DNA of 33,165 nucleotides from contig NZ_CANMKO010000017.1 in NCBI RefSeq assembly GCF_947498515.1, positions 1 to 33,165 on the forward strand. Direction: 5' to 3'. Below are positions 10,188 to 27,290 of the stretch, in pieces. Under the pieces are notes generated by a model. The model was not told the origin of the DNA and searched no databases. It saw only the letters and a list, made by a program, of their open reading frames with translations. The stretch is from an uncultured Pelagimonas sp. (GTDB lineage: Bacteria; Pseudomonadota; Alphaproteobacteria; Rhodobacterales; Rhodobacteraceae). Each line of letters starts with the position of its first letter. Positions within the stretch are counted from its first letter, which is position 1. The position numbers and the translations under genes are program-made.

Positions 10188-10214
10188 GTGACTGGTCCCT
10201 GAAATCAAAGTTGC

Positions 10215-10240: not shown

Positions 10241-10242
10241 GC

Positions 10243-10286
10243 TGCACATGCAAAGTTCGGAGCGATGGTCCAACCGTGCACATGCA
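10243..10286. repeat. Two copies of TGCACATGCA
   Basis: The decamer TGCACATGCA occurs at 10243-10252 and 10277-10286, 34 bases apart start to start, in the gap between the cyclase-family gene and the glycosyltransferase-like gene. It differs from a perfect palindrome only in its two centre bases. The spacing is close to three helical turns, so a regulator binding site for the downstream pair is conceivable. Confidence 0.4.
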
Positions 10287-10309: not shown

Positions 10310-11332
10310 TCAAACCGTCGCGATCGGGGTCGCCGGGGATCCAACCGCCCCGGTCAAACGCAGCGGCGGGGCCGTCAGCAAGAAGCGGCTGCGACCCTGC
10401 GCTTCGAGCCATTCAGCAAGATCGCAGAGCTGCCACAGCTCGGCCAGCGGCACACCCAATTTAAACAGGCAATGCTCGTGTAGGGGAAGAATAGAGCCAC
10501 AATAGTCATCAGGTAGCGGATTGCCGGCCGCCTCAACCGCAATGTTATCCGAGATCAGCGCCGCGACGCCGCTATCGGTAATCCATTGCAACAAGCGCTT
10601 GTCATGGCCGTCAAGCACCGCGCAGGCCTTCTTGATCGCCGGGTCAGGGTTGCCCGCCCCCGCAAGGATCATCTTGTCGATCCCGGTCCAGAGCAACAGC
10701 ATGTCGCCCTCTTCCACGGTGATATTGTCGGCCTCCATCACCCGCATCAGATCGTCGTAAGACACGTCATGACGGGTGTCGCCAAAATGCTTGTGCAGGT
10801 TGATCAACACACCGCGCCCTTGCAGGCCGTGGGCCGCGAAATTCTCGATCCCCAGCTTGTGGGCACAGGTGACATGCCCGTTTTCGCCACTGTCCATGGT
10901 CAGATCTTCGCCAGCGCGGAACCCGTTGTAGTAGACCGGGACATCAACCCCGTCGCCCATCACATCAAAGTTCGAACCGCGATGCGCCAGCGCATCCCAT
11001 TGGGTCGAATATTGCGTATAAAGCAGCACCGCGTCATCGGCGGCGATATCCGGAAAGCGCGGATCGAATTCCTGCCAGTTATAGTTGAAATAGGGGGCAT
11101 CGTTGCGAATGACCGGGCGCAGCGCCGGTGGGAAGCGCACCGGAGACAGCACATTGCCCCCCGGCAGGTCCAGCGGCAGCGACAGGCAAAATGTTTTGCC
11201 GGTTTGTACCTCGGCGATGCCCTTTTTGACCTGCTCAGGGCCAATCAAGTTCAACCGGCCCAATTGATCATCCGGGCCCCAATCGCCCCAAGTTGATCCT
11301 TCGGGGCGGTTTGTCCAACGTGTCGTGCTCAT
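10310..11332 (-). CDS. Cyclase-family (kynurenine formamidase-like) metal-dependent hydrolase
   Basis: The 340-residue protein resembles the cyclase family (PF04199), which includes metal-dependent amidohydrolases such as kynurenine formamidase. The family's metal-binding HxGTHxDxPxH region appears as the variant QWDALAHRGSNFD (residues 111-123) followed by GDGVDVPVYYNG. This WDALAH form is common in the longer uncharacterised members. The ATG at 11332 overlaps the upstream lyase stop as ATGA, which fixes the start and suggests translational coupling; an in-frame upstream ATG at 11389 lies inside the lyase. It is the last gene of the five-gene minus-strand operon. Neighbouring lyase and ATP-grasp genes suggest it opens or closes an amide, imide or lactone of a small acid; that is inference. 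Family assignment is good, substrate unknown. Confidence 0.82.
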   Translation of the reverse strand: MSTTRWTNRPEGSTWGDWGPDDQLGRLNLIGPEQVKKGIAEVQTGKTFCLSLPLDLPGGNVLSPVRFPPALRPVIRNDAPYFNYNWQEFDPRFPDIAADDAVLLYTQYSTQWDALAHRGSNFDVMGDGVDVPVYYNGFRAGEDLTMDSGENGHVTCAHKLGIENFAAHGLQGRGVLINLHKHFGDTRHDVSYDDLMRVMEADNITVEEGDMLLLWTGIDKMILAGAGNPDPAIKKACAVLDGHDKRLLQWITDSGVAALISDNIAVEAAGNPLPDDYCGSILPLHEHCLFKLGVPLAELWQLCDLAEWLEAQGRSRFLLTAPPLRLTGAVGSPATPIATV

Positions 11333-12693
11333 GCGGTGAATCCTTGTGTTTTGGCGCGGTTCAAAACCGCATCCACCATCACGCCGCAAGACCCGGTATA
11401 ATTCCCCGGCTCAAGCAGGCGGTCGATGGTTTCTATGTCAAATTGGGCTGTAACAGTCTCGTTTTCGAGCAGGGCATCGCGCAGATGTCGCCCGCTGTCG
11501 ATGGCCGCTGCGGCGGCCCCGGTGACCACCTCATGCGCCGTGCCACGCCCCAAGATCGGGGCCAGGCCGGACATGACCGCCTCGGACATGATCAGCCCGC
11601 CGCCCATATCCAGATTGCGACGCATATTGGCCACGTCCACATCCAAGCCCTCAAGCATGGGGCGGGCCTGCATCAAGGCCCCGGAGGCCAAGAGAAATGC
11701 TTCGGGAATGACCATCCATTCCACTGGCATGGCGCTGATCCCACGCTCATGTTCTTGGATTTGGCTTTCCATCATCTGCGGCACCAAGGCGCGCAAACGG
11801 TTGGCAATGGCGATGATTTGCGGACAGGCGATGGGATTGCGTTTTTGCGGCATCGCCGATGAGGCGCCACGCCCCGGCACGTAAGGTTCGCGCACTTCGC
11901 TCACCTCAGAGCGCATCAACATGGCCACTTCGGTGCCAATCCGGCCTAGCAGACCGCCGACCTGACCCAGCCAGAAAATCATCTCGCCAAGACCATCGCG
12001 GCCCGTGTGCCAAGTGATGTCGGGATCGCGTAGGTCCAATTCGCGGGCCAGCGCTGCGCGCACTGCGGTGCCTTTGTCGCCCAGCGGGGCCAAAGTGCCA
12101 ACCGCGCCGCCAAATTGCACCGCAAAGGCGCGGTCCTTGATCTCGGGCAGTTTGGCGCGATGGCGCAAAGCCTCGTCAAGCCAACCGGCAGATTTATAGC
12201 CAAAGGTGATCGGCACCGCGTGCTGTTGGAACGTCCGCCCTGCCATGGGCGTGTTGCGATGATCCGCCGACAGTTTGACCAGCGCGGAAATCACCCCGTC
12301 AAGTTCGGCCTCGATCAAAGCCAGACCGGTGCGCATTTGCAGTACCAGCCCCGTGTCCAAGGCATCCTGAGTCGTCGCGCCCCAATGCACATAACGTGCA
12401 GCATGATCGGGACAGGCGGCGGTCAGCTGTTTGACCAGCGGCACAATGGCAAAGCCAACCTTTTCAAACATCACCCGCATCGCCGCCGGATCAAGATTGT
12501 CGGTGGTGGCCGCTGCGGTGATCGCCTCGGCCGCCTCAGATGGGATCACATCACAGCTGGCTTCGGCGCGCGCCAATGCGGCCTCAAAATCCAGCCAGGA
12601 TTGAAACCTGCCCATATCCGAGAAAATTTCCCGCATTGCGGGCGTGCTGAACTGGTCAGCGTAATAGGGGCTGTCAAAGAGCGTGGCGGGCAT
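11329..12693 (-). CDS. Fumarase/aspartase-superfamily lyase (PcaB/adenylosuccinate lyase-like)
   Basis: The 454-residue protein carries the three conserved regions of the superfamily: HWGATTQD (103-110), the QQHAVP segment with His158, and the signature GASSAMPQKRNP (276-287), whose flexible serine loop provides the catalytic base. The signature and length are closest to 3-carboxy-cis,cis-muconate cycloisomerase and related lyases. Members either eliminate fumarate from succinylated amines or add or remove small groups across C4 acids. No protocatechuate-pathway gene is nearby, so muconate chemistry is unlikely. The context (ATP-grasp 18 bases upstream, cyclase-family gene overlapping downstream) suggests a biosynthetic C-N or C-C lyase. 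GAGG lies about five bases before the ATG. Superfamily certain, reaction unknown. Confidence 0.88.
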   Translation of the reverse strand: MPATLFDSPYYADQFSTPAMREIFSDMGRFQSWLDFEAALARAEASCDVIPSEAAEAITAAATTDNLDPAAMRVMFEKVGFAIVPLVKQLTAACPDHAARYVHWGATTQDALDTGLVLQMRTGLALIEAELDGVISALVKLSADHRNTPMAGRTFQQHAVPITFGYKSAGWLDEALRHRAKLPEIKDRAFAVQFGGAVGTLAPLGDKGTAVRAALARELDLRDPDITWHTGRDGLGEMIFWLGQVGGLLGRIGTEVAMLMRSEVSEVREPYVPGRGASSAMPQKRNPIACPQIIAIANRLRALVPQMMESQIQEHERGISAMPVEWMVIPEAFLLASGALMQARPMLEGLDVDVANMRRNLDMGGGLIMSEAVMSGLAPILGRGTAHEVVTGAAAAAIDSGRHLRDALLENETVTAQFDIETIDRLLEPGNYTGSCGVMVDAVLNRAKTQGFTA

Positions 12694-12711
12694 GGGGGCC
12701 TCTTTTTTATG

Positions 12712-13980
12712 TTAGTCGGCTTCAGCCAGTTGGCCGAAAATATCCTTGCGCATGATCGCGTTGCCCTGCGTGTCATAGACTTCCATCTGATCAATCGCAG
12801 TGCGGGTCCGGGCAAAAACCGTTTCACGGTCTGGTCCAGTGACAAGAAACGCCCCCACGCGCGAACGGGTCGACATATCGTTGCCAATCTCCATACCCGC
12901 AGTTTTATAGGGAAGCATCCGGGCAATCGTGCCATTGTCGATCAAGGCATCAACACCTTCGACACGATCAAAGGTTCCGGGCTGGGCATAGACCGTGTTG
13001 GTCATCAGCCAAAGCCCCGATGGGTTCAGAGCCACCTGCACCGGGTTGCCAAGCCAGCTATCCAGCGAGGCTTCGATCGCGTCAAAGCCGCTGATCATCT
13101 TGGTCACGGCCGATCCCGTGCCCCCCGAGAGGCGCGGCGAAAATTCGATTAGGCTTATCCCGCTGTCATTCAAAAACGCCTGAACCAGCATCGGCACGTT
13201 ATCAAGCTCGAACGCCGCGGCGAGTTTCGAGAGGATCTCTTCGACCTCGTCCAAACGCTCTTCAAGCGGCCAAGGGGCGATCGATCCGGTCGATTGGATG
13301 ACCTTGTCGCGCGGCACATTGAGCATATCAAACTTGCGCCGCACCAGAACGATTTTCGCCCGGCCGTTTTCAACAAAGCAATCGATAGACAACTCGGCAC
13401 CTTCGACGAATTCCTCAACCACGGCCTGACGCACGCGGCTGATGGCAAAGGCGGTGGCAAGGTGCAGGCGCAGCGCCTCAAGGTCATCGACCCGGCGCAC
13501 CCCGGCCGATCCGTTGGAATCGGCTGGCTTCACCACCATGGGAAAGGTCAGATGCGCAATCCGCGCCTCAAGATCGGTGACGTCATCCTCGCCAAGGAAA
13601 ATATGCTGGGCCGTGGGAAGGTTGGCCTCGGCGAAACGGCCCTTCATGCCGCCTTTGTTGCCGATCAGCGATGCGGTCGCAAAGGAATAGGGATGCGGCA
13701 AGCCCAGCTCTTCAGAGACCTGAATGGCAACGACATTGGCTTGATCAACACAGGTGGCAATCACCAATTCGGCATTTTGCGCCCGGGCAACGCGGGCCAC
13801 GGCATCGGGGTGCAGCGTGCTTTCTTGCACATGCAGATCGGCATGCGGGGCCGCAGGCGGCGCATCAAGGTAATCCACCAACACCACACGCCAACCGCGC
13901 GCCTGCAACAGTTCGATCAGCCGAATATGCGGATTTGTACCGCCTAGGACCACTGCTGTGGGTTTCGTGTCACTTACCAT
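12712..13980 (-). CDS. ATP-grasp carboxylate-amine ligase-like protein (copy 1)
   Basis: The 422-residue protein begins with a Rossmann-like strand (VVLGGTNPH, 10-18), then an ATP-grasp domain: FPMVVKPADSNGSAGV with Lys151, EEFVEGAELSID (189-200) and the metal-binding end EFSPRLSGGTG (279-289). Such enzymes activate a carboxylate as acyl phosphate with ATP and join it to an amine. The usual ExNxR metal motif reads E-F-S-P-R here, a variation seen in some members. I use the ATG at 13980 (AAGAAG and AGG upstream); the frame is open to 14088 but that part overlaps the preceding gene and lacks family sequence. A clear paralog lies on the opposite strand at 24032-25294, sharing the N-terminal LGGxxPHI, DAPPAA, VEEFVEGxELSIDC and C-terminal SRSRV/GRSRV-like segments. 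Substrates unknown. Confidence 0.87.
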   Translation of the reverse strand: MVSDTKPTAVVLGGTNPHIRLIELLQARGWRVVLVDYLDAPPAAPHADLHVQESTLHPDAVARVARAQNAELVIATCVDQANVVAIQVSEELGLPHPYSFATASLIGNKGGMKGRFAEANLPTAQHIFLGEDDVTDLEARIAHLTFPMVVKPADSNGSAGVRRVDDLEALRLHLATAFAISRVRQAVVEEFVEGAELSIDCFVENGRAKIVLVRRKFDMLNVPRDKVIQSTGSIAPWPLEERLDEVEEILSKLAAAFELDNVPMLVQAFLNDSGISLIEFSPRLSGGTGSAVTKMISGFDAIEASLDSWLGNPVQVALNPSGLWLMTNTVYAQPGTFDRVEGVDALIDNGTIARMLPYKTAGMEIGNDMSTRSRVGAFLVTGPDRETVFARTRTAIDQMEVYDTQGNAIMRKDIFGQLAEAD

Positions 13981-14029
13981 CGGCCTGCATCTTCTTTGCT
14001 TACTCGTAGAACGGTTGGTCCGAACATTG

Positions 14030-15067
14030 TCAGTCCCGCTCCAGTGGCACAACATGGGTTGTTTGGGCAAGGGCATCGAGCTTGGCAATCACCGCATCTG
14101 ACAGCGGCACATGATCGCCCCGCCCCTGCATATAGCCAGCACCACGCTCTCCGGGGAGGAAAACCGCCCCCTCCGCCCCAGCATCCTTGGCCGCGGCAGA
14201 CAGATCGCGCATGCCGGTGTCATACTCGGCCTGCGGCATCATCTGGGCGATATCAATGGCGATCAGCATATGCCCACAGCGCGATGGCCCATCGGGGTTA
14301 TTAAGGTTGCGCGCCATGCCGCCCGAGGCCGAGCGCGTCATCAGCCCGGCCATGATATCCACCACAACCGACAGCCCATATCCCTTGGCCCCACCAACCG
14401 GTAACATCGACCCCGCCAATGCGGCAACCGGATCGCAGGTTGGTTCACCGGCCTCATCCAGCGCCCAGCCAAGCGGAATATCGTCGCCATTGGTGGCCGC
14501 CAGACGGATTTTGCCGCGCGCCGCCTGGCTTGTCGCCATATCAAGAATGACCGGGGCCATGCCATCCGGGGCCGGAAAGCCAAAGGCCATTGGATTGGTG
14601 CCAAACACCGCTTTGTGCCCGCCGGTCGGCGCGATGGCCGGGGCGGCATTGGCCAGAACAATGGCCGCCATGCCCGACTCAACCGCCCGCGCCGCCACAA
14701 AGGCCGCCGTGCCAAAGTTATGACTATGACGAATACCAACAAGGCCAATACCACAGGTTTTGGCCATCTTAACGGCGCGATCCATACCACGGATCGCCGC
14801 CACCTGACCAAAGCCATCCCCCGCATCAAGCAGCGCCATCGCCGGAGCGGATGACAATTCTCTCAGCGGGGTTTGCGCCTGCATCAGCCCCTTTTGGATA
14901 CGGTTCACATAGATCGGCATCCGACCCGCGCCATGGGTGCCTTTGCCATGGGTATGGGCAAAGCGGATCGAGTCGACAATCAGCGCAGCATCCTCGGCAG
15001 GAACCCCCTGCCCCAGCAACACATCCAAACAAAACCGCTCTAGCGCCGATAGCGCGATATCGGGCAT
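14030..15067 (-). CDS. Ldh-family (malate/L-sulfolactate/ureidoglycolate type) NAD(P)-dependent dehydrogenase
   Basis: The 345-residue protein belongs to the malate/L-lactate dehydrogenase family (PF02615), which interconverts 2-hydroxy acids and 2-oxo acids with NAD(P) and is unrelated to classical LDH. Visible signatures are THGAGRMPIY with His45 as probable catalytic residue, GIRHSHNFGTAAF (111-123), FGTNPMAFGFPA, DMATSQAARGKI and GGAKGYGLS near residue 220. The order in HSHNFG differs from the commoner SNHFG: His and Asn are swapped. It starts 3 bases after the U32-like gene stop, with AAGAAGGG inside that gene's end as ribosome site. Malate, ureidoglycolate or another 2-hydroxy acid are all possible substrates. 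The operon suggests biosynthesis rather than lactate use. Family assignment is firm. Confidence 0.9.
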   Translation of the reverse strand: MPDIALSALERFCLDVLLGQGVPAEDAALIVDSIRFAHTHGKGTHGAGRMPIYVNRIQKGLMQAQTPLRELSSAPAMALLDAGDGFGQVAAIRGMDRAVKMAKTCGIGLVGIRHSHNFGTAAFVAARAVESGMAAIVLANAAPAIAPTGGHKAVFGTNPMAFGFPAPDGMAPVILDMATSQAARGKIRLAATNGDDIPLGWALDEAGEPTCDPVAALAGSMLPVGGAKGYGLSVVVDIMAGLMTRSASGGMARNLNNPDGPSRCGHMLIAIDIAQMMPQAEYDTGMRDLSAAAKDAGAEGAVFLPGERGAGYMQGRGDHVPLSDAVIAKLDALAQTTHVVPLERD

Positions 15068-15070
15068 GGT

Positions 15071-15961
15071 TTAGCCCTTCTTAGGCGCAACAGTGACGGC
15101 TTCGGGGTAATATTCATCCAGCATCCGTTTGACCAATTTCACCTGCTTGGCGCGTTTGGCGGCATCGGCATCCGAACTGTCCCAGCTGTGGGTTTTGGCA
15201 ACGGACCCACCGGTCTTGAGGTAAATCGGCGCCGCGACACGGACCATTTCCGGCACTTCGTAATGGCGGATGAAGCCACCGGTCGAGGCCGGGTTTTCGG
15301 TATGCACATCCAACGGCAGATCAACCGCCTGACGGATGGCCGACAACATCTGCATCTGAATATCGCGGATCGGATTGAATGTATTGGCCCCGATCTGCGC
15401 CAGCATGGCCGCCGCGCAAGGATTGCCGTGACCGGTATGGGCCGACACCTTGAAGCGCACATCAGCCGGGAGTTCGCCCGCCTTGCGCATTTCATTCATC
15501 AACCACAGGCTGCCTTCGTCATAGACAAGAAAGGATCTCACCCCAAGCGCCACACCGCGGTGCACCTCTTCGACGGCGCGGATCACTTGTTCTTGGCCAC
15601 GCAGGCGATAGCCCATGCGCACCCCTTCGGGGGTGTTGACCGAGGCGCTGGTATCGGTGGTGGCGCGTGGCCCGATCGACAAGACCAGCTCAACCGCAGC
15701 ATCCCGGGCCATATCGACCATTTGGGTGATTTCACTATCCAACAGGGTCATGACCCCTTTGGTCTGGGTCACACGGTGCACCGGCACGCCGTTTTTCTCG
15801 ACCGCCTCAAGAAGCGCCGCCATGGCGCTTGGCCCTTGGATACCCGGCACTTCGAACCGGTATTGCGCTCCATCCTCAAAGCGTTTTTCCGATGTCGGAA
15901 GATCATAACAATCGCCCGTCGGCAGGCCCATTTTCGAAAGAAAATCTTTGGTTTTCTGCAT
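15071..15961 (-). CDS. TIM-barrel-like protein resembling U32-family peptidases
   Basis: The 296-residue protein has barrel-like alternation of strands and helices, with conserved-looking blocks VELVLSIGPRATTDTSAS, SFLVYDEGSLWLMNEMR, SAHTGHGNPCAAAM, LDVHTENPASTGGFIRHYE and APIYLKTGGS. The wording is closest to proteins annotated as U32 peptidases, a group of which several members are now known to act on RNA or cofactor precursors rather than on proteins. I do not see the diagnostic U32 signature clearly, so the call is tentative. It is the first gene of the minus-strand operon, translated from ATG 15961 after GAGAG, and its promoter must lie in the 320-base divergent region shared with rmlA. 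The His/Asp/Glu-rich conserved blocks suggest a metal- or acid-binding pocket. Function unknown; an enzyme acting on a small acid fits its neighbours. Confidence 0.6.
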   Translation of the reverse strand: MQKTKDFLSKMGLPTGDCYDLPTSEKRFEDGAQYRFEVPGIQGPSAMAALLEAVEKNGVPVHRVTQTKGVMTLLDSEITQMVDMARDAAVELVLSIGPRATTDTSASVNTPEGVRMGYRLRGQEQVIRAVEEVHRGVALGVRSFLVYDEGSLWLMNEMRKAGELPADVRFKVSAHTGHGNPCAAAMLAQIGANTFNPIRDIQMQMLSAIRQAVDLPLDVHTENPASTGGFIRHYEVPEMVRVAAPIYLKTGGSVAKTHSWDSSDADAAKRAKQVKLVKRMLDEYYPEAVTVAPKKG

Positions 15962-16282
15962 GCGTGCTCTCTATTTTTAAACAGGCCAAAATGCGCAGTG
16001 TCGGGGCGTCTCACCCCCCTGCAAAATTCGAGCGGACATTAGAAGCGCCCGTAAAAGGTGTCAACGTGACCCCTGATCAGCAAAAGCTTGCCGAACAACG
16101 ACCCTGTGGGCAAAATTTGCCCCCATAACGCCCTCATTGAAACCACAGCGACGTGCAAAGGCTAGGTCAGGTATTCACGCATGGTTGAATTGTCTGCTTG
16201 GCTGTACCAAAAGCACCACAAGGGTAAAATACCGTCTTTGCCCGGTATAGGTCAAAGATGTTTATAAGGACTGTGTCGCGCT
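15962..16282. promoter_or_regulatory. Divergent intergenic control region between the two biosynthetic operons
   Basis: This 321-base gap separates the start codons of the U32-like gene (minus) and rmlA (plus), so promoters for both operons should lie here. No open frame in it is credible. AT-richer segments are at about 15965-15990 and 16195-16265. I could not fix an unambiguous -35/-10 pair on either strand. An inverted repeat at 16229-16248 sits just before rmlA. Confidence 0.65.
16229..16248 (+). promoter_or_regulatory. Inverted repeat in the rmlA leader
   Basis: ATACCG and CGGTAT are perfect inverted 6-bp arms around eight bases (TCTTTGCC), ending 34 bases before the rmlA ATG. It could be an operator or a leader hairpin; chance occurrence is not excluded. 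Confidence 0.3.
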
Positions 16283-17173
16283 ATGAGCCCAACAAATCGT
16301 CGCAAAGGGATCATCCTCGCCGGAGGGTCTGGCACCCGGCTCCACCCCGTGACCAAGGGTGTGTCCAAACAACTGTTGCCGGTCCATGACAAGCCGATGA
16401 TCTATCATCCGCTTAGCGTCTTGATGCTGGCTGGGATGCAAGACATCCTGATCATCTCGACCCCCGATGACATGCCGCAATACAAGCGCCTTTTGGGCGA
16501 TGGCAGTGAATTTGGCATTCGTCTGCAATACGCCATTCAGCCCAGCCCCGATGGCTTGGCCCAGGCCTTTATCATTGGGGAAGAGTTCATCGGAGAAGAC
16601 CCGGTTTGCTTGGTTCTAGGGGATAATATCTTTTACGGCCCCGGCTTTACCCAGCTGCTCCTCCAAGCCTCGGCACGTGAATTGGGGGCCACGGTCTTTG
16701 CCTATCAGGTCCATGACCCCGAACGCTTTGGTGTCGTCGAATTTGACGCCAACCGCCGTGTTCTTTCGGTCGAAGAAAAGCCGCAGAAACCCAAAAGCAA
16801 TTTTGCCATCACGGGCCTCTATTTCTATGACAACCGCGTGGTTGAAATCGCCAAGGGGGTCAAACCCTCGGAACGGGGCGAAGTTGAAATCACCGACGTC
16901 AATCGTGCCTATCTGGAATCGAGTGACCTCTATGTGCAGCTGTTGGGCCGGGGCTATGCCTGGCTTGATACCGGCACCCATCAATCCTTGCTCGAAGCCT
17001 CGTCCTTTGTGTCGACGGTCGAAGCCCGACAGGGCTATAAAATCGCCTGTCTCGAAGAAATTGCCTATCTCAAGAAGTGGATCAACCGCGATCAACTTTT
17101 GGAACAGGCTGACGCACTGAAAAAAACCGCTTATGGTCAGTATCTATACGATCTGGCGAAGGAAGAGAAATGA
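16283..17173 (+). CDS. rmlA: Glucose-1-phosphate thymidylyltransferase
   Basis: RmlA joins glucose-1-phosphate and dTTP to give dTDP-glucose, the first step to dTDP-rhamnose and dTDP-amino sugars. The 296 residues match the family length. The nucleotide-binding signature [12 protein letters not shown] is at 9-20, followed by [11 protein letters not shown] (29-39), and VLGDNIFYG and [20 protein letters not shown] are in the expected order. AAGGA lies about 12 bases upstream of the ATG. It leads the nine-gene plus-strand operon and its stop overlaps the next start as ATGA. rmlC and rmlB lie 15 kb away on the same strand, so this rmlA is detached from that operon and most likely feeds the aminotransferase that follows it. 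Identification is secure. Confidence 0.96.
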
Positions 17174-18315: not shown

Positions 18316-18333
18316 GCCAAGAAAGACAAGCCC

Positions 18334-19506: not shown

Positions 19507-20876
19507 CCATGACAACAGCGGAAACCGCCGTTGGTTCCCTTTCTGATACGGACCGTCTGTTGGACGGGCTTATGGTGCTGGCCGACACACCGCTGTCACC
19601 GGTTTTGGCCGCCACAGCGCGGTTGCGGTTTTTGGATTGGATGGGCTGCGTTCTGGCCGGGGCGGCCAGCGAAGAAAAACGCATTGCCCATATGCTTGCC
19701 AATGGCGGTGACGGCCCTGCCCCGGTGGTGGGGACCGGGCGCAGCAGCGCGCCCTTAACCGCGGCCTTGATCAACGGCATGTTGTCCCATGTGGTCGAGC
19801 TCGATGATGGTCATCGCTATGGCATCACCCATGCGGGCGGCCCGCTTATTGCCGCACTTTTGGCCATCGGGCACGATCCCCGCATGACACCTGAGAGTTT
19901 TCTCAAAGGGATAGTGGTCGGATACGAAGCCGCCCTGCGCGTGGCCATTGCCTGCCAACCCGACGCCAAGCTGCGCGGTTGGCATGGGTCGGGGGTGTTT
20001 GGTGTGATCGGTGCCGCTGTGGGTGTCGGCGCGGCGCTGGGATTCGACCGGGTGAAAATGAACGCAGGCTTAGCGGCGGCCTGCACTTCGGCCTCGGGGA
20101 TGGTCAAAGCCTTTTCCGCCGGGTCCGAATTGAAACCTTATAATGCTGGGCAACCTGCCCTGACCGGTTTGGCCGCCGCGATCACCGCCGATGCGGGATT
20201 TCCGGGTCCGAGAGGTATTCTCGATGGCGATCACGGCTTGGTCCAGATGGTGCGCGGAACACCGGCGGACCCGGCGGCTTTTGTTGTTCAGGCCCCCTAT
20301 TGTGTCGAAACCGTTTATCTCAAACCCTATGCCTCCTGCCGCTATTGTCATGCCCCGGTCGAGGCGGTGCTGAATCTACGGGCTCGGCACGGCGTTCAGG
20401 CCAAGGACGTGCGCGAGATTCGCGTCGATACCTATAAGCTCGCGGTTCATAAACATGATCACCGCGAGATCGACGGCCCCTATTCGGCGCGCCTTGGCAT
20501 CCCCTATTGTGTGGGGGCCGCACTGGCGCGCGGAGAAACCGGCATGGCGGCCTTTGCCCCCGAGGCTTTGGCAGACGCAGACACTCTGCGGATCATGCGC
20601 GCCACCTATGTCTTTGAGGACCCCGATCTAACGGCGCTTGTCCCGGCGCGCCGCGCCGCGCGCCTTGCCATGACCCTGGTTGATGGCACCGTGATCGCGG
20701 ACCAAGTTGACCTGCCACGCGGGGAGCCAGAAGTCCCGCTAACCGCCGATGATCTACAGGCCAAATTCACCGATCTGGCACAATTTGCCGGGATGGACGG
20801 TGAACGTGCAAAAGCCCTTGCTGCGCAGATTCTATCCCCCCAAGCCGACCTGCGGGCCTTGGCAACTGCGCTATGA
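19503..20876 (+). CDS. MmgE/PrpD-family protein (2-methylcitrate dehydratase-like)
   Basis: The 457-residue protein matches the MmgE/PrpD family, whose known members dehydrate 2-methylcitrate or isomerise/decarboxylate related acids such as cis-aconitate. Signatures include FLDWMGCVLAGA near residue 45, HVVELDDGHRYGITHAGGP (about 97-115), GVIGAAVGVGAALG, KPYASCRYCHAPVEAVL and the late FTDLAQFAGM. Family length is usual. Propionate-catabolism partners (prpB, prpC) are absent, and the gene is overlapped by ATGA junctions on both sides, first with the CitE-like gene and then with the glycosyltransferase fusion. It therefore belongs to this operon's own pathway, where a dehydration step on a hydroxy-polycarboxylic acid fits the neighbouring C-C lyase. 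The true substrate is unknown. Confidence 0.9.
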   Translation: MTMTTAETAVGSLSDTDRLLDGLMVLADTPLSPVLAATARLRFLDWMGCVLAGAASEEKRIAHMLANGGDGPAPVVGTGRSSAPLTAALINGMLSHVVELDDGHRYGITHAGGPLIAALLAIGHDPRMTPESFLKGIVVGYEAALRVAIACQPDAKLRGWHGSGVFGVIGAAVGVGAALGFDRVKMNAGLAAACTSASGMVKAFSAGSELKPYNAGQPALTGLAAAITADAGFPGPRGILDGDHGLVQMVRGTPADPAAFVVQAPYCVETVYLKPYASCRYCHAPVEAVLNLRARHGVQAKDVREIRVDTYKLAVHKHDHREIDGPYSARLGIPYCVGAALARGETGMAAFAPEALADADTLRIMRATYVFEDPDLTALVPARRAARLAMTLVDGTVIADQVDLPRGEPEVPLTADDLQAKFTDLAQFAGMDGERAKALAAQILSPQADLRALATAL

Positions 20877-23182
20877 CCACCTTGAACACACAAAATCCAA
20901 CAGACCCGGTCTCAAGCGGTTTCCTTGACCGGCGCGCTGCAAACCGCGCGCTCAGAAACAAGACCATCCCTGCCATCAACGGTTGGTCGGCCATCGAAAC
21001 CGCAGGGACCCGCAGCGCCGCGTTTCGCCCACTGATTGAACAGCTGTTGCAAAACAATCAAATCGAAACGGCGGTCGACCTGCTGCACCGTGCCAGCCGA
21101 CACATGCCGCTTTCCAAACCCTACAGCCTGCGGCAATTGCAAAGTGTCGCCACTTGGTTGGCCCGCGAAGGGCATTTGAGCGACGCTCTGGCGATCCTGC
21201 GAAAATCCGTCAACGCAGATCCTCAAGACCCCGTGCGCCGGACGCAGTACATCAACTTTCTCTACCTGTTCCAGATTGTCGACCCCGCCGAGATTCCCCG
21301 GCTTGTCAGGTTTCTGGATGAAGGCTTGCCGCCTTTGGCCATTAGCCGTGCCACCGAGCTTATCTTGTCGGCCGCAGCCTCCCCCGATCAGGCAAAGAAT
21401 GGCGTGAAACGCGCTTTGCAAGCCGCAGAAAAAACCACGGCATTGCCTCAACTCTTGGCGATGCTCGCAGAGCATTACGCCAGCACAGGGCAGTCTGATA
21501 GGTTAGAGGCCTTGCTGGCGCGTTTTCGCCGCCTCTTTTCCACTCAGGACAAAGCGTTCTTCGCTGCTCCGCAATTGGCCGCGCTGGCCCGGGCCGAAAA
21601 CCGGGTTCCACCCACCCAAATCGCCCAGGCTACCGTGGTCCTGCATCAGCTCGAAGACGGGCAAGAGGCGCTGTTTGCCTTGTTCCGCGACCCAAATATC
21701 CGGATTGCCGTGGTGGGCAATTCCCCCAATGCTTTGGGGGCTGGCAAGGGGGCCGAGATCGACGACCATGACGTGGTGATCCGCTTCAACCGGTTCTCCT
21801 TGGATTCGCAATATCACGCCGATTTAGGTCAAAAGACCGACGTGGTGGTGCAAACGATCTCGACCTTCCAAGGTCATGCCCACCCGCGTAAGGCAGCCCT
21901 CCTCCAAGCCCTAGAGGGCTCACCGCACCGTTTTCTCTGGAAAGCGGGACCACCGGAACTCGACCCGAACCTTGACGTGCTCAAAGAATTCATCGCCAAC
22001 GGCGTGCGTCTGGCCAGTATGGCAGGTCAAGACTATCATCAATTGAATCTGCTGCTGCGCTCGTCCAGCAGCTCCGGCATCCAAATTCTGTGGACGCTGT
22101 TTCAACTGCGCGGCTCTCTGGACAATGTTGGTACCTATGGGTTTTCCTTTGTGGATCAGGTCGGCACAGACCGCGCCCCGTCAAATTATTTCCGCAACGC
22201 CGCCCCCAGTTTTGGCAACAATTGGCCCGGCGAGGCCCAGCTTCTGAGAGAACTCAAAGCAGGGACACAACCCGACGAGCTGCCCGACAAGCGCACCGCC
22301 ACAACAGCCAGCTTTTCCCCCCGAAGCGATTTCCGACCGCTGCGCCTGCGTCTGATCGGCGACCATTCCGACTATCATTGCGGCTGTCAGGCGGTGATGA
22401 ACTATCTCACGGCATTGATGAAACGCTATGGTGTGCTGGTCGAGGATGACAGCTACGATATTTTGGTGGCCAATGGTGAAGGCTCAATGCATCGCAATCG
22501 CCGCAACCATATTCAGAAAATGGAAGCGCTGCGCGCGGCCCTTGATGCGGGCAAGCGTGCCATGCTGATCAACACGGTCTGGCAAGAAAACGATGCGCGG
22601 TTTGATGATGTGCTTGGGCAGCTGTCTTTCATCTCGGCGCGTGAACCTCGCAGCCAACAAGAGTTGATCCGCAATCACGGAGTCGAAGCACAGATGTTTC
22701 TGGATTGCTCCTACTGGGCCAGTATCTCCAAGCCTGATCGGGTGGAGGATTTCACCGGAAAGACCGTGCTGACAGATTTCTATTCGCAAGAGTTCAACGC
22801 CTTTGTAAAGATCACCAGCGGATCTCTGTCCCGGAAAAGCGCCTATATCTCGCTGGCAGACTTTGACTGGCCGGGGCTGGTTCATAGCCTGCGCAGCGCC
22901 AGATTGTTGGTCACCGGGCGACATCACGCCTTCTTTGCGGCCTGCCGTGCAGAGATTCCCTTTGTTGTGGTGCCCGGCAACACGCATAAGATCGAGGCGG
23001 TGATCGAGGCCTCGGGTGTGGATATTCCAATCTGCCGTGATCCGTCCCAACTGGACGAGGCGATGGCCTGGGCTCGGGCCAACCGCCCCCGGTATCAGGC
23101 TCTGTTCCGCTGGATGCGCGCGCAACCCAAACTCGCTTTTCCGGGCCACACTCTATTTCGCAACATGGCGCAGGTGTCATGA
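20873..23182 (+). CDS. Three-part protein: helical-repeat region, GT29 sialyltransferase-like domain, polysaccharide pyruvyltransferase-like domain
   Basis: The 769-residue protein has three segments. Residues 1 to about 260 are TPR-like helices. Residues about 276-430 hold sialyltransferase-like motifs: IAVVGNSPNALGAGKGAEID followed by HDVVIRFNRF and DLGQKTD resembles the L motif of GT29, and SSSSSGIQILWTLFQLRG with VGTYGFSF resembles the S motif. Residues about 490-735 look like the polysaccharide pyruvyltransferase family (PF04230): LIGDHSDYHCGCQAV, VANGEGSMH, SAREPRSQQEL, VTGRHHAFFAA and GNTHKIEAVIE. It could transfer both a sugar (perhaps Kdo or a nonulosonate) and a ketal-pyruvate or related group. 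Neither activity is proven; some PF04230 proteins are glycosyltransferases instead. The start is fixed by the ATGA overlap with the PrpD-like gene. Cytoplasmic; no membrane segment seen. Confidence 0.78.
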   Translation: MTTLNTQNPTDPVSSGFLDRRAANRALRNKTIPAINGWSAIETAGTRSAAFRPLIEQLLQNNQIETAVDLLHRASRHMPLSKPYSLRQLQSVATWLAREGHLSDALAILRKSVNADPQDPVRRTQYINFLYLFQIVDPAEIPRLVRFLDEGLPPLAISRATELILSAAASPDQAKNGVKRALQAAEKTTALPQLLAMLAEHYASTGQSDRLEALLARFRRLFSTQDKAFFAAPQLAALARAENRVPPTQIAQATVVLHQLEDGQEALFALFRDPNIRIAVVGNSPNALGAGKGAEIDDHDVVIRFNRFSLDSQYHADLGQKTDVVVQTISTFQGHAHPRKAALLQALEGSPHRFLWKAGPPELDPNLDVLKEFIANGVRLASMAGQDYHQLNLLLRSSSSSGIQILWTLFQLRGSLDNVGTYGFSFVDQVGTDRAPSNYFRNAAPSFGNNWPGEAQLLRELKAGTQPDELPDKRTATTASFSPRSDFRPLRLRLIGDHSDYHCGCQAVMNYLTALMKRYGVLVEDDSYDILVANGEGSMHRNRRNHIQKMEALRAALDAGKRAMLINTVWQENDARFDDVLGQLSFISAREPRSQQELIRNHGVEAQMFLDCSYWASISKPDRVEDFTGKTVLTDFYSQEFNAFVKITSGSLSRKSAYISLADFDWPGLVHSLRSARLLVTGRHHAFFAACRAEIPFVVVPGNTHKIEAVIEASGVDIPICRDPSQLDEAMAWARANRPRYQALFRWMRAQPKLAFPGHTLFRNMAQVS

Positions 23183-23249
23183 TGTGCTGTTATTTACCCC
23201 ACGCGCCAGTCCATCCCACCCTGCGCGTCCCTCATAAGGTGCCACTTCG

Positions 23250-24002
23250 ATGACACATGCCCCCACCACCGTTGCGATCATGCAGCCTTATGTCTTTCCC
23301 TATCTAGGGTATTACCAGTTGGCTCATACGGCTGATCACTTCGTCTTTTATGACGATGTGCAATTCATGAAAGGCGGTTGGGTCAACCGCAACAGAATTT
23401 CCAACCAAGGCAAGCCGCTGATCTTCACCATTCCGGCGCGCGGCGTGTCTTCGAGCGCGCGGATCATGGATATCGGATGCGGCGTGGACGCGAAGTTTCA
23501 AAAGAAATTCCTGCGCCAGCTCGAACAGGAATACCGCAAAGCCCCCCATGTTGAGGCGGTTGTCGACCTTGTCGCCAAAACCCTCTCTGGCCCCCATGAG
23601 GGCAATATGTCCAAACTGGCCATCGCCTCGGTGCGCAATGTCTTTGACTATCTCGACCTGCCCCTGAGCGATCAGGTGTCCTCACTCGATCATCCCCGCG
23701 CCGATATCAAAGGCTCGGAACGGGTGATTGCCGTGACCAAAGCCCTTGGCGGTCAGCGCTATGTCAACCTGCCCGGCGGCGTGTCCTTGTATTCGACAGA
23801 TGAGTTTGCCCAATCCGGCATTGATCTGAAGTTCATTCAGGATCAAAGCGCCCCCTACACACAGTTCAACCACCCGTTTATTCCCCGGCTCTCGATCATT
23901 GATGTGATGATGCATAATTCCCCCGACAGGCTGCGTGTGATGTTGGACCAAGTTGCTCTCCGGAGCGCCGACGACATGGGCACGCCCGAGAGCGACGATT
24001 GA
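23250..24002 (+). CDS. WbqC-family protein
   Basis: The 250-residue protein matches the WbqC family (PF08889), found in O-antigen and other glycan clusters and proposed to act in amino-sugar modification. The N-terminal signature is clear: VAIMQPYVFPYLGYYQLA (8-25), then DHFVFYDDVQFMKGGWVNRNRI, followed by a central LPGGVSLYSTDEFAQSGI and a closing HPFIPRLSIIDVMMHN. AAGGTG lies about ten bases before the ATG, after a 67-base gap from the fusion gene. WbqC members often sit beside DegT aminotransferases and ATP-grasp genes, as here, which supports a step in making or modifying an amino sugar. The biochemical reaction is not established for the family, so I assign none. Confidence 0.9.
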   Translation: MTHAPTTVAIMQPYVFPYLGYYQLAHTADHFVFYDDVQFMKGGWVNRNRISNQGKPLIFTIPARGVSSSARIMDIGCGVDAKFQKKFLRQLEQEYRKAPHVEAVVDLVAKTLSGPHEGNMSKLAIASVRNVFDYLDLPLSDQVSSLDHPRADIKGSERVIAVTKALGGQRYVNLPGGVSLYSTDEFAQSGIDLKFIQDQSAPYTQFNHPFIPRLSIIDVMMHNSPDRLRVMLDQVALRSADDMGTPESDD

Positions 24003-24031
24003 TAGGCCCGCCAGCCACAAGGACTTTTCTG

Positions 24032-25294
24032 ATGACCAACCGCCCCACGTCTCAACCCGTCGCCCTTGTTCTGGGTGGCGTCAGCCCGCATATCGCGGTG
24101 ATTGAACGTCTAAAATCGCTCGGCTACTGGACGGCCCTTGCCGACTACAAAGACGCCCCCCCCGCAGCAGACTATGCCGATGAGCACCTGCAAATCAGCA
24201 CATTGGATGCAGAGGCGGTGGAACAGGCGGCGCGTGATTTGAACGCCCAGGCGGTGATCAGCGTCTGCCTTGACCAACCCTTGCCTATCTTGGCTCAGGT
24301 GCGTCAGGCGCTTGGGATCGCCTCCCCTCTGACCCCTGTGGCGGCGCATCGGCTCACCAATAAGGACGCGATGAAACAGGTGCTGCGCGAGGGCGGCGTT
24401 GATACGGCGAAATGGATCATTGCCGATCGCCCAGAGGCGGTGAACACCGATGGCTTGCGCTTTCCTGTGGTGGCCAAACCGGTTGGTGGCACCGGATCGC
24501 TTGGCGTTGTTTTTGCGGCGGATGAGGCCGCGTTGACCGAACAGCTCGACCAAAGCTTTGCCATGGCGCGCGGTGGCGATGTTTTGGTTGAGGAATTTGT
24601 CGAGGGCATGGAGCTGTCGATTGACTGCATCGTGATCGAGGGAAAAACCCATGTGCTTTTGGCGCGCGAACGCCACAAGACATGGTTCTCGGAGGGGCGC
24701 GAAGCCACCTGTCATGCCACCCTCGCCCCGGCGCGACAGACGCCCGAGATTGAAACCTTGATGCAGGAACAGGCCGAGGCCTGTGCCCGCGCCTTTGAGT
24801 TGTCGGACGGGCCGATGCTGATCCAATCGATCCTGACACAAGACGGCCGCTTGGTGGTGCTTGAGGTTGCGGGTCGCATTGGCGGTGGCCCCGGTGCCAA
24901 CCGTGTGGTCGAACTTGTCACCGGCTTTGATTATGTCGGGGCCTCGATTGATCAACAATTGGGCCGGGCTGTGGCCTTTGAGACCAATCCCGATTCACGG
25001 GTGTTTTCCGCCAATAATGCCTATGCCTCGGAAGGGGTCTTTGACCGCGTCACCGGCATGGATGCGCTCTTGGCCGACGGATTGGTCGAGGAGCATTACA
25101 TCTATCGCATGCAAGGCGAAGACATCTCGGATCACCTCTCTGGGCGCAGCCGCGTCACGGCTTTTGTTGTCGCCGCTGAAACCCACGACGCTCTCCGCGA
25201 TCGGCTGGTGCAGATCTATGATCGTTTGGACATTCTAGACACATCAGGCCGGTCTATCCTGCGCCGCGACATTGGATTGCATCACGACCTATAG
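24032..25294 (+). CDS. ATP-grasp carboxylate-amine ligase-like protein (copy 2)
   Basis: The start is the ATG at 24032, with AAGGA about nine bases upstream; the frame runs back to 23999 but without a ribosome site. The 420-residue protein has the N-terminal LVLGGVSPHIAVIE strand, an ATP-binding loop VVAKPVGGTGSLGVVF (about 145-160), LVEEFVEGMELSIDC (about 185-200) and the metal-binding end LEVAGRIGGGPGANRVVEL (about 275-293). As in copy 1 the canonical ExNxR Asn is replaced, here by Ala. It is clearly related to copy 1 at 12712-13980 over the whole length, including the C-terminal FDRVTGMDALL and SGRSRV segments. Predicted to form an amide between a carboxylic acid and an amine using ATP; substrate unknown. 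It lies 29 bases after the WbqC-like gene. Confidence 0.88.
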   Translation: MTNRPTSQPVALVLGGVSPHIAVIERLKSLGYWTALADYKDAPPAADYADEHLQISTLDAEAVEQAARDLNAQAVISVCLDQPLPILAQVRQALGIASPLTPVAAHRLTNKDAMKQVLREGGVDTAKWIIADRPEAVNTDGLRFPVVAKPVGGTGSLGVVFAADEAALTEQLDQSFAMARGGDVLVEEFVEGMELSIDCIVIEGKTHVLLARERHKTWFSEGREATCHATLAPARQTPEIETLMQEQAEACARAFELSDGPMLIQSILTQDGRLVVLEVAGRIGGGPGANRVVELVTGFDYVGASIDQQLGRAVAFETNPDSRVFSANNAYASEGVFDRVTGMDALLADGLVEEHYIYRMQGEDISDHLSGRSRVTAFVVAAETHDALRDRLVQIYDRLDILDTSGRSILRRDIGLHHDL

Positions 25295-25416
25295 CCCCAA
25301 GATACAATCTGCGGCTTTGGTTCTCTTTTCTTTTTCACTCAACTGTGGTGTTTTTGAAAACAACGAGAGACGCGCATCGCCTCTCATCCACGATAACAAA
25401 GGTGGCTCAGGTCCCC

Positions 25417-26499
25417 ATGACAGCAAAAGCACCCTCCCCCTATCGCGGTCTCCCGGACACGGCCTATTGGCGCAGCGGCGTCGCCAACCGTCCACAGTTT
25501 TCGACCGAGGGCCTGTACACGCCCCGATTTCGCATTTCGCGCAAGGCCAAGATTGTCACCGCCGGGTCCTGTTTTGCCCAACATGTTGGCCGCACGCTAA
25601 AGAATGCCGGGTTTCGGATCATGGATGGCGAACGCGGTCCCAATGTGCCGGATTCGGTGCTCCAGCGGTTTGGCTATAACCTGTATTCGGCCCGTTATGG
25701 CAACGTCTATACCACCCGGCAAATGGCCCAGCTTTTGGCCGAAGCTTTTGATGGTTTTGAGCCCACCGATGCGATCTGGGAAAAGGATGGTCGCTTCTAT
25801 GATGCGCTGCGCCCGTCGGTGGAACCCGATGGCCTACCCAGCCCCGAAGATGTGCGCCGCCATCGCCAAAGCCATCTGGCTGCGGTCCGCGAGCTGTTCA
25901 GCACTCTGGATGTCTTTGTCTTTACCTTTGGGCTAACCGAGGCCTGGATGTCGCAAGATGGCAGCACCGTTTACCCGACCGCCCCCGGCACCATTGCCGG
26001 AGACTATGACGAGACGCGCTACAAGTTTCACAACTTTCGCTACAACGAGGTGCTCAACGATTTTCGCGCCGTGCGCAAACGGATCAGGGCCTTTAATCCG
26101 CGGGCCAAATTCTTGGTCACGGTATCGCCTGTCCCGCTGACCGCGACGGCGACCGGCCAACATGTCGAAGTCGCCTCAAGTTATTCCAAATCGGTGCTGC
26201 GGTCGGTTTGTGGCGCGCTCTATGAAGATTATCATAAAGACGTGGATTATTTCCCATCTTACGAAGTCATCACCTCGCAAACTGCACGCGGCGAAAACTT
26301 TGCCCCCAATATGCGTTCGGTCACGCCCGACGGGGTCCAGCGCGCCATGAGCCTGTTCATGCAAGCCCATGACCCAGATGGCAAAGTGGCCCCCAAGAAG
26401 ACAGGCCCGAAGCCAAAGCTCAAGGCGCCCCCAAAACCAGAGCAAATCGAAGACGACGTTGTCTGCGAAGAAGCCCTGCTAGAGGCGTTTTCCAAATGA
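25417..26499 (+). CDS. GSCFA-family protein (SGNH-fold, probable esterase/acyltransferase)
   Basis: The 360-residue protein contains the defining motif of the GSCFA family (PF08885): TAGSCFAQHVG, with GSCFA at residues 50-54, where Ser51 is the predicted nucleophile position of the SGNH-type fold. Later family-like blocks are VFTFGLTEAWM, YPTAPGTIAGD, FRYNEVLNDF and LVTVSPVPL. The C-terminal 40 residues form a Lys/Pro-rich linker and an acidic tail. ATG 25417 is chosen over the in-frame ATG at 25345 because CAGG precedes it and the upstream part is low-complexity. A 122-base AT-richer gap precedes it, the longest inside the plus-strand operon, so an internal promoter is possible. Function is unproven; acyl substituent transfer or removal on the glycan is inferred. 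Confidence 0.88.
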   Translation: MTAKAPSPYRGLPDTAYWRSGVANRPQFSTEGLYTPRFRISRKAKIVTAGSCFAQHVGRTLKNAGFRIMDGERGPNVPDSVLQRFGYNLYSARYGNVYTTRQMAQLLAEAFDGFEPTDAIWEKDGRFYDALRPSVEPDGLPSPEDVRRHRQSHLAAVRELFSTLDVFVFTFGLTEAWMSQDGSTVYPTAPGTIAGDYDETRYKFHNFRYNEVLNDFRAVRKRIRAFNPRAKFLVTVSPVPLTATATGQHVEVASSYSKSVLRSVCGALYEDYHKDVDYFPSYEVITSQTARGENFAPNMRSVTPDGVQRAMSLFMQAHDPDGKVAPKKTGPKPKLKAPPKPEQIEDDVVCEEALLEAFSK

Positions 26500-27290
26500 A
26501 CCCACGTATCACATTGGTCGGGAATTCCCATGTCGCCGCCCTGCGGCGTGGATGGGATCACATCAAAGACGGCTTTGACGTCGATCTACAGTTCTTTGCT
26601 GCGAACTCCACTCTGTATGGTCAACTTGAGCTATCGAAAGATAAGCAATTTGGCATGCATGACCTCCAGAAATACCACCCCCGCCATGTCTCCTTTCTCA
26701 AGGACCACTTCGGTGATGTCACGGTGGATCTCTCCTCATCCGATGCGGTGGTCTTGGTGGGGACTGGAATCCGGGCCAAAGACTTTGTTCGCAACTTAAG
26801 CCGGTTCAGCATTGATGGTATTCGTGACATCGAAGGGTTGCCCCCGATGTCGCGTGAGGCCTTTGATAGCTTTGCCCCAAGCATATACCAAAAAGGGCCC
26901 TTGCCCGAGTATTGGATGAACTGGTCGGGACCGCGCGTCTATATCTTAGTCCCCCCCATCCCAAGCGTTCACTGCCCCATTGAGGACAAGCGTTACAAGG
27001 TCTGGGCTCAGTTTGGCCAGACGGCTCAAAACAACATCGGCTTCTTGCAGCACTATCATGACATTGTGCGCGCCGAACTCGCCACCCAGAACGTCCATCT
27101 TATCTCCCAGCCATGGGATATCTTGTCCGAAAACGGGCTGACCCGTGCCCAATACCATGACGGGGCTAAACGGTTGGATGAAACCTTGGCGGACTATGCG
27201 GATGACTATCACCATATGAACCCGACCTATGGCGCAAAGGTTCTACGTCATGTTTTGCAAACCGTGCAAACCGACTGTGTGCCCGCCTAA
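26496..27290 (+). CDS. SGNH/GDSL-like hydrolase or acyltransferase
   Basis: The 264-residue protein begins with a strand and the block VGNSHVAALRRGW (8-20), where Ser11 is in the place of the GDS nucleophile of SGNH enzymes. The end, ADDYHHMNPTYGAKVL (235-250), holds the Asp-x-x-His pair typical of the last catalytic block (Asp237, His239/His240). The middle has strand VVLVGTGI and YILVPPIP. It has no signal peptide or membrane helix, so it is probably cytoplasmic. It overlaps the GSCFA gene as ATGA, so both are expected to be made together; the two are distant members of the same fold group. A role in O-acylation or deacylation of the polysaccharide is plausible but inferred. Last gene of the operon, convergent with repA across 22 bases. 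Confidence 0.7.
   Translation: MNPRITLVGNSHVAALRRGWDHIKDGFDVDLQFFAANSTLYGQLELSKDKQFGMHDLQKYHPRHVSFLKDHFGDVTVDLSSSDAVVLVGTGIRAKDFVRNLSRFSIDGIRDIEGLPPMSREAFDSFAPSIYQKGPLPEYWMNWSGPRVYILVPPIPSVHCPIEDKRYKVWAQFGQTAQNNIGFLQHYHDIVRAELATQNVHLISQPWDILSENGLTRAQYHDGAKRLDETLADYADDYHHMNPTYGAKVLRHVLQTVQTDCVPA

Follow-up and report, generated by a model that had tools for sequence, protein, structure and literature searches.

The window studied here comprises the whole of contig C17 (33165 bases) from the draft genome of an uncultured Pelagimonas sp. (Rhodobacteraceae), and it holds a divergent cluster of 14 genes, five open reading frames (ORFs) on the minus strand (15961 down to 10310) and nine on the plus strand (16283-27290). 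Judged from its gene families, the cluster may be a cassette on a plasmid that equips a surface polysaccharide with an acylated amino sugar; a conserved core would form a 2-oxo acid, to be reduced and amide-linked. We consider this reading plausible and just short of probable. The core has four functions: P0001, an orphan enzyme; a CitE-like lyase; a PrpD-family protein; and a fumarase-type step. It recurs in other roseobacters and in anaerobes of several phyla and leads into one of two mutually exclusive exits. A preliminary description, made from the letters of the window, had proposed that the 14 genes produce a small acid, which is activated with ATP and attached to an amino sugar. This idea was partly supported and sharpened to an orphan-enzyme core, two exclusive exits and an exchanged fumarase step. 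P0001, left without a family name in that description, was better conserved in the relatives than any other part of the cassette and belongs to no known family. The genes of the core, the exit and the sugar supply are:

15071-15961, minus strand: P0001, orphan TIM-barrel enzyme, first minus-strand gene
14030-15067, minus strand: Ldh_2-family 2-hydroxyacid dehydrogenase, proposed 2-oxo acid reductase (PF02615, E 2.3e-97)
12712-14088, minus strand: ATP-grasp ligase 1 with LAL_C2-type C-terminus (PF13535, PF18603), likely start ~13980
11329-12693, minus strand: class-II lyase (PF00206, Lyase_1; PF10397, ADSL_C)
10310-11389, minus strand: cyclase-family metal hydrolase, proposed lactone or amide hydrolase (PF04199, E 5e-12), likely start ~11332
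15962-16282: divergent intergenic region of exactly 321 bases, without recognised regulatory element
16283-17173, plus strand: RmlA, glucose-1-phosphate thymidylyltransferase (TIGR01207, 501.8 bits, cut-off of 360.65 exceeded)
17170-18315, plus strand: DegT-family sugar aminotransferase, DesI-like (Pfam, NCBIfam, PDB)
18334-19506, plus strand: CitE-like C-C bond lyase (C-C_Bond_Lyase, PF15617, 365 bits)
19503-20876, plus strand: MmgE/PrpD-family dehydratase or epimerase (Pfam; nearest solved structures iminodisuccinate (IDS) epimerase and IRG1)

A conserved core around an orphan enzyme

Sixty-one P0001 loci with 69-85 % identity were found in a scan of genome contigs of the GTDB-species collection, which used exact P0001 peptide patterns and thus reached close relatives only. 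Two belonged to Rhodobacterales (Tritonibacter scottomollicae and a Rhodobacteraceae metagenome-assembled genome, MAG). The 59 others were assigned by record title to Bacillota, Bacteroidota, Fibrobacterota, Lentisphaerota or no group; they were mostly MAGs of anaerobes, many titled rumen, omasum or faeces. Within the family of the window P0001 was present in 2 of 394 genomes, its own counted, and a profile search of 398 genomes of the phylum retrieved its own genome only. The four roseobacter proteins formed one clade within a well-supported group of 22, the remainder of which were anaerobe sequences.

Window and gut proteins were compared with the loci by tblastn, which was preferred for counts as a simple ORF caller mis-called GC-rich loci; counts refer to 9 kb around P0001 unless whole loci are stated. 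The CitE-like lyase was present in 59/62 loci, FumB in 53/62, FumA in 52/62 and PrpD in 47/62. The values for the lyase and PrpD are slight undercounts, because loci L005 and L006 are the two halves of one contig, and its CitE-like lyase, PrpD and part of DegT lie on the L005 half. Over whole non-roseobacter loci the frequencies were 57/59 for the lyase, 53/59 for the FumA and FumB pair and 48/59 for PrpD; a Pfam check of one representative per fumarase subunit gave PF05681 and PF05683. P0001 and the CitE-like gene shared the strand in 57 of the 59 loci having both, and were divergent, like in the window, in the roseobacter loci L007, L008 and L005/L006. In contrast, 0/59 non-roseobacter loci had a match to seven genes that lie elsewhere in the window (DAHP synthase, orf1417, RTX, RepA, ParA, ParB and DUF2793). 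A further core set, L112, came from a genome draw rather than from the pattern scan and was surrounded by WbqC, DegT, RmlA and RmlB. Independent occurrence of the two arms, named by the preliminary description as evidence against a joint purpose, was thus not found for the core. From this recurring co-occurrence the cores of the minus and plus arms appear to form one pathway. A literature search in open-licence papers aimed at the gene set did not find a four-function trunk around the orphan enzyme.

P0001 itself had no match in Pfam or NCBIfam at E 0.001, and its best PDB chain by sequence reached only E 0.17, with no PrpB match among the chains. An AF2 model based on a 44-row alignment was a TIM barrel (pLDDT 84.6, pTM 0.85); an earlier run without alignment (pLDDT 44) was discarded. 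The top Foldseek match of the model was the class II aldolase YdjI (E 1.3e-7, TM 0.49), and ALAD, class II fructose-bisphosphate aldolases, a U32 protein and 2-methylisocitrate lyase matched with similar quality; PrpB was among the matches with a TM of about 0.45, level with other barrels. This model-based result says barrel fold, not function. The lysines K171 and K249 were invariant in 13 of 13 rows; a DERA-like reading of this pair was dropped, as the strand positions disagree with those of DERA. Assignment to Peptidase U32 was likewise rejected (PF01136, 11.4 against a gathering threshold of 22.4 bits, E 0.19). Two distant P0001 relatives are annotated as U32, and a weak profile match (E 1.9e-5) fell on a gene of L090 that reads as U32; hhalign of P0001 against one U32 sequence of the window's genome found nothing. 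The U32 gene of L090, the Kps-type exporter, the TRAP and tricarboxylate transporters, the LysR-like and the ManC-like genes of this study were named by eye from translations, without family search.

A proposed exchange of the fumarase step in roseobacters

The class-II lyase and the cyclase gene were present in 3/3 roseobacter relatives and in 0/59 other loci. No fumarase match was seen by tblastn in the roseobacter loci, and the window's genome had no match to PF05681 (class I fumarase), as expected if lyase and cyclase replace the fumarase step. We infer that lyase and hydrolase together achieve a net hydration in place of FumAB. The preliminary description had called the lyase a fumarase/aspartase-type enzyme; the Lyase_1/ADSL_C superfamily was confirmed, while the top scores came from the carboxymuconate-cycloisomerase/adenylosuccinate-lyase branch, above fumarase or aspartase. 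The NCBIfam scores stayed below the equivalog cut-offs (PRK09053, 486.9/595; 347.6/355.75; 249.4/371 bits), and assignment as a carboxymuconate cycloisomerase (PcaB) proper was rejected on these scores. The lyase also matched 3c8t, 1re5 and Tad1; a search of open-licence papers for the lyase in tellurium-resistance operons found none. One relative of the cyclase, in Sulfitobacter indolifex, lies beside a muconolactone isomerase, an enol-lactonase and a 3-keto-5-aminohexanoate cleavage gene, and three others adjoin TRAP, tricarboxylate or amino-acid transport genes.

Two exclusive exits

Over 62 loci the core was followed by one of two exits. Exit A, a thiamine diphosphate-dependent decarboxylase (Ppd) and/or an aldo-keto reductase (AKR), was present in 34 loci (30 with both, three with Ppd only, one with AKR only), and a 2-hydroxyacid dehydrogenase (2HDH) exit in 25 (19 of the 2HDH and six of the Ldh_2 type). 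No locus had both and three had neither; a Fisher p-value calculated on such counts takes no account of relatedness among the loci. The window represents the dehydrogenase exit with ATP-grasp and DegT. On a tree of 63 P0001 proteins, 60 of them labelled, the exit changed 11 times, at least seven changes being forced by well-supported branches; shuffled labels required about 20 changes, and none of 500 shuffles was as low. The exits were thus partly inherited and repeatedly swapped, and to judge from the 11 changes on the tree a single trunk seems to supply either of two exchangeable exits.

The dehydrogenase exit was accompanied by ligation and sugar genes. A relative of the ATP-grasp ligase occurred in 23/25 dehydrogenase loci (median identity 37.5 %) against 4/34 exit-A loci (22-26 %), and DegT in 20/25 (median 51.5 %) against 8/34 (median 32 %). 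Together with the co-occurrence of the core, this partly supports the sequence of acid formation, ATP activation and sugar attachment foreseen in the preliminary description, though not for all 14 genes.

Both exits open with enzymes whose known relatives have 2-oxo or 2-hydroxy acids as substrates. The nearest solved structures of the window's Ldh_2 protein are malate/lactate and sulfolactate dehydrogenases; its top NCBIfam model, sulfolactate dehydrogenase, stayed under cut-off. The Ldh_2 family occurred in 3/59 non-roseobacter core loci. All six exit-A decarboxylases compared with the phosphonopyruvate decarboxylase model passed its cut-off of 312.5 bits (406-412 in five, 384 in the sixth). 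A phosphoenolpyruvate (PEP) mutase above cut-off was found in only 2 of the 18 exit-A genomes examined (of 34), with a weaker match in two more; many of the 18 are MAGs and perhaps incomplete. Decarboxylases above cut-off with scarce PEP mutase suggest that the substrate is another 2-oxo acid, or that P0001 is a new source of phosphonopyruvate.

More distant P0001 relatives, from four plasmid records and eight loci, had neighbours that included sugar ABC transport and MR/MLE genes in Thermomicrobium, alcohol dehydrogenase and sugar ABC genes in Streptomyces, aldehyde dehydrogenase in Nonomuraea, an E1-type dehydrogenase and 2HDH in L115, and ketopantoate hydroxymethyltransferase and glutamate dehydrogenase in L131. 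Several of these neighbours handle 2-oxo or 2-hydroxy acids, in line with the proposed 2-oxo acid hinge. A plasmid of Enterobacter chuandaensis (L072, 6898-16861) carries a kinase, a P0001 relative (32 %), 2HDH, an aminotransferase and a haem-oxygenase-like enzyme along with M14 and MFS genes; together they may form a small-molecule cluster.

Proposed pathway

In the cassette proposed here, RmlA, RmlB (contig C23) and DegT would form a dTDP-4-amino-4,6-dideoxyhexose, most likely viosamine (dTDP-4-amino-4,6-dideoxyglucose). The four core functions would yield a 2-oxo acid, the fumarase-type step being taken in the window by class-II lyase and cyclase-family hydrolase. Ldh_2 would reduce this acid to the 2-hydroxy acid, which an ATP-grasp ligase would amide-link to the amino sugar or to the growing glycan. 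The gene families, their co-occurrence, the exclusive exits and the lack of a class I fumarase match in the genome are observations. From them we infer which way the pathway runs, that a 2-oxo acid is its hinge, which sugar is made and that the link is an amide. The dTDP-sugar genes are tied to the core by the relatives: the contig of L005 carries rmlB and rmlC, and in L008 rmlB directly follows the cyclase gene. In the window's genome the best RmlB match scored 328.6 against 365.1 bits and is truncated by the end of contig C23.

A wider proposal, which we regard as tentative and rather unlikely as a whole, is that P0001 founds a new family of 2-oxo-acid enzymes within an undescribed methylcitrate-like trunk with two exchangeable exits, and that aerobic roseobacters swapped the oxygen-sensitive fumarase for class-II lyase and lactone hydrolase. 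On this view P0001 would act as a C-C lyase or an aldolase, or else supply phosphonopyruvate by a new route; one exit would lead by decarboxylation and reduction to an alcohol, the other by reduction to a hydroxy acid that is then ligated to amino sugars. Acid decorations of amino sugars are known surface chemistry; the four-function trunk with its conserved orphan enzyme, absent from the open-licence papers searched, may be new. Because anaerobes of several phyla share the core with roseobacters, solving one of its reactions would help to annotate dozens of loci and might uncover a new substituent of glycans. If true, the replacement of the Fe-S fumarase pair by class-II lyase and hydrolase would be a clear pathway adaptation to oxygen.

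Alternative explanations

Several points weigh against the acylated-sugar cassette. Its steps are assigned from gene families with predicted substrates, and the lyase-plus-cyclase replacement rests on three relatives. No fumarase pair was visible in 6/59 and no PrpD in 11/59 non-roseobacter loci, some of these contigs being short. ATP-grasp proteins of 20-28 % identity were also present in exit-A loci (AGr1-type 4/34, AGr2-type 9/34). Ligase 1 was missing between Ldh_2 and lyase of L008 and had no match at E 1e-20 in that genome, a MAG that may be incomplete. The viosamine-type sugar named by the preliminary description agrees with the RmlA score and with DesI (dTDP-4-dehydro-6-deoxyglucose aminotransferase) as top NCBIfam model of DegT; the DesI score was, however, 294 bits against a cut-off of 650, and the closest PDB entry, 2po3, is named '4-dehydrase'. 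Polysaccharide markers (PssT, Wzx, RmlA/B/C, DegT, sugar-transfer ATP-grasp) were found in only 18/34 exit-A loci and none in 16/34, so that a role in glycans cannot be assumed for the core at every locus. A LysR-like gene stood in five exit-A operons (L014, L017, L022, L055, L056), some of them away from polysaccharide genes.

The marker-free loci and the LysR-like genes, as well as L008 without ligase 1, raise the alternative that the core degrades organic acids and that its sugar-gene neighbourhood is incidental or a carbon supply. The sister clade of P0001, which we also count in favour of the proposed core pathway, points the same way. A match to the P0001 superfamily at E 1e-15 was obtained in 28 of 348 genomes of Bacillota (the phylum of L015, a Mediterraneibacter), the centre included; of 20 such loci read, one was the core set L112, 11 formed the sister clade and eight were more distant. 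Malic enzyme accompanied the sister clade in 11/11 loci (Pfam-checked in L117 only, assigned by clustering in the others), Fum genes in 7/11 and Ldh_2 in 6/11, and some carried TRAP- or tricarboxylate-transporter-like genes; the same segment could here be run as catabolism. In L118-L120 a D-glutamate cyclase-like gene (PF14336, checked in L120) lies by the P0001 relative and malic enzyme. Against degradation in the window stand the coupling of the dehydrogenase exit to ATP-grasp and to DegT proteins around 50 % identical, the single gene run uniting RmlA and DegT with lyase and PrpD, and the Pfam scans, which recognised no transporter gene in the window cassette. We consider a catabolic core unlikely. 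Still less likely is a C-N chemistry, in which PrpD would be an imino-acid epimerase and the lyase would join an amine with fumarate; the product, an amino acid of the iminodisuccinate or N-carboxyalkyl type, would be ligated by ATP-grasp. The nearest solved relative of PrpD is indeed an IDS-epimerase (2hp0/2hp3), and the class-II lyase belongs to a superfamily of C-N lyases; the epimerase match is, however, weak (115 bits), and 53/59 non-roseobacter loci hold the Fe-S fumarase pair, known for hydration, against 0/59 for the lyase.

A further alternative is that P0001 supplies phosphonopyruvate or sulfopyruvate by a new route, which exit A would decarboxylate and the window's dehydrogenase would reduce, giving phosphono- or sulfolactate. 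This would suit the exit-A decarboxylase scores with few PEP mutases and the sulfolactate dehydrogenase model of Ldh_2. Such a pathway does not account for the steps of the CitE-like lyase, PrpD and fumarase, and malic enzyme with fumarase in the sister clade points to carboxylates; we hold it to be improbable. A chance meeting of independent polysaccharide and acid genes on an accessory plasmid would fit the rarity of P0001 in the window's family and the variable tail genes described below, for which it still may apply. For the core it is hard to hold, with P0001 and CitE-like lyase together in 57/59 non-roseobacter loci against none for the seven non-cluster genes, and as an account of the cluster it is very improbable. 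The acylated-sugar cassette is the reading that we prefer.

Layout of the cluster and plasmid context

The remaining genes of the contig considered here are:

5941-7656, minus strand: paralogue of the following protein (53 % identity; GT41 at E 0.19 only)
7686-10283, minus strand: TPR protein, perhaps a glycan-transfer enzyme (weak TPR match only)
20873-23182, plus strand: tail gene, TPR, GT29-like motif and polysaccharide pyruvyl-transferase domain (Pfam)
23250-24002, plus strand: tail gene, WbqC family (PF08889); a 38 % relative lies near the core in L112
23999-25294, plus strand: tail gene, ATP-grasp ligase 2, likely start ~24032
25345-26499, plus strand: tail gene, GSCFA family (PF08885, E 6.5e-52)
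26496-27290, plus strand: tail gene, SGNH-like protein (PF19040, E 0.0013, below cut-off)
27313-28419, after the plus-strand tail genes: RPA-type replication gene
32548-33117, plus strand: RmlC

Two divergent arms with 14 genes around the 321-base gap were real, as the preliminary description had stated. Its families RmlA, DegT, Ldh_2, Cyclase, CitE-like, MmgE/PrpD and WbqC were confirmed by Pfam and NCBIfam, with GSCFA matched in addition, and its two paralogous ATP-grasp ligases are 37 % identical. The 14 genes as one fixed unit were not supported: the five tail genes vary, ligase 1 is absent in one of three roseobacter relatives, and two left-hand genes had been omitted. The minus-strand operon probably continues through these two (7686-10283 and 5941-7656), the gaps being 26 and 29 bases. 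The paralogues follow the cyclase gene in two of three relatives (L006 and L007, 62-67 % identity for the 7686-10283 protein), while in L008 the rmlB match takes this place. Conserved co-occurrence in relatives, which the preliminary description had looked to, was seen for the core; the five tail genes were not found after PrpD in L005 (~16.8 kb visible) and L007 (3.6 kb visible), L008 ending earlier, and thus lie outside the conserved unit.

The 20873-23182 protein fuses TPR, a GT29 sialyltransferase-like motif and a pyruvyl-transferase domain, and it was matched at E <= 1e-20 in 2 of 394 family genomes, its own included. Searches of open-licence papers for pairs or triples of viosamine, WbqC, O-antigen and ATP-grasp found none. 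Contig C23 carries, by eye, frames for an ABC-type polysaccharide export system (Kps-type), a glycerol-phosphate cytidylyltransferase, a CDP-glycerol transferase and a frame similar to the SGNH-like protein. The RmlA of Tritonibacter scottomollicae (L007, 7294-7981) matched in three pieces with 47-60 % identity, which suggests a broken or mis-assembled gene. Longest-ORF starts were used for the ATP-grasp genes and the cyclase; from the sequence, the internal ATGs listed as likely starts are the likelier ones.

A shared motif was not found in the 321-base gap, which is poorly conserved among the four roseobacter sequences (51 % mean column identity). Promoter-like sites numbered one against 0.6 expected and terminator-like sites two against 1.0, and an Rfam search of the window gave no match. 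ParA-like and RmlC genes lie beyond the RPA-type replication gene, so that C17 combines RPA-type replication gene, ParA, rmlA, rmlC and polysaccharide genes. The RPA and ParA genes and the relatives point to a roseobacter plasmid. A blastn search of the cluster against plasmids returned 38-base rfbA matches only. The top plasmid relative of the CitE-like lyase (51.8 %) lies on a Brevibacillus plasmid (L073, 7959-9113) next to genes for a phosphoribosyltransferase and a StiP-type protein, the setting of a stress cassette. An RTX repeat protein is encoded at 2012-4534 (Pfam), with an overlapping frame from 1417 without family, and a DUF2793 gene lies near the replication genes (31306-32421).

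Comparison with known systems

Degradation of iminodisuccinate pairs IDS-epimerase with a C-N lyase, and the window has a similar pair of PrpD-family and fumarase/aspartase-superfamily proteins. Unlike in that system, 53/59 non-roseobacter relatives carry the Fe-S fumarase pair, and the lyase was present in 3/3 roseobacter relatives but in 0/59 non-roseobacter loci. The 2-methylcitrate cycle (PrpC, PrpD, aconitase, PrpB) condenses, dehydrates, rehydrates and cleaves to a 2-oxo acid. The core shares the PrpD family with it and may share this logic; in place of citrate synthase it has a CitE-like lyase, in place of aconitase a fumarase or class-II lyase, and the sequence of P0001 did not match PrpB. 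A 2-methylcitrate dehydratase proper was rejected for PrpD, whose sole NCBIfam match, NF042438, scored 32 against 950 bits. In Vibrio cholerae O1 the acyl acid of the surface sugar is a 2-hydroxy acid, and the families of its tetronate pathway presumably differ from the core described here. According to PMC3441752, the tetronate genes VC0248-VC0252 make the hydroxy acid that acylates perosamine, a 4-amino-4,6-dideoxyhexose. The cassette proposed here would differ in the sugar, and would resemble V. cholerae O1 in devoting dedicated genes to a hydroxy acid on a 4-amino-4,6-dideoxyhexose of a surface glycan.

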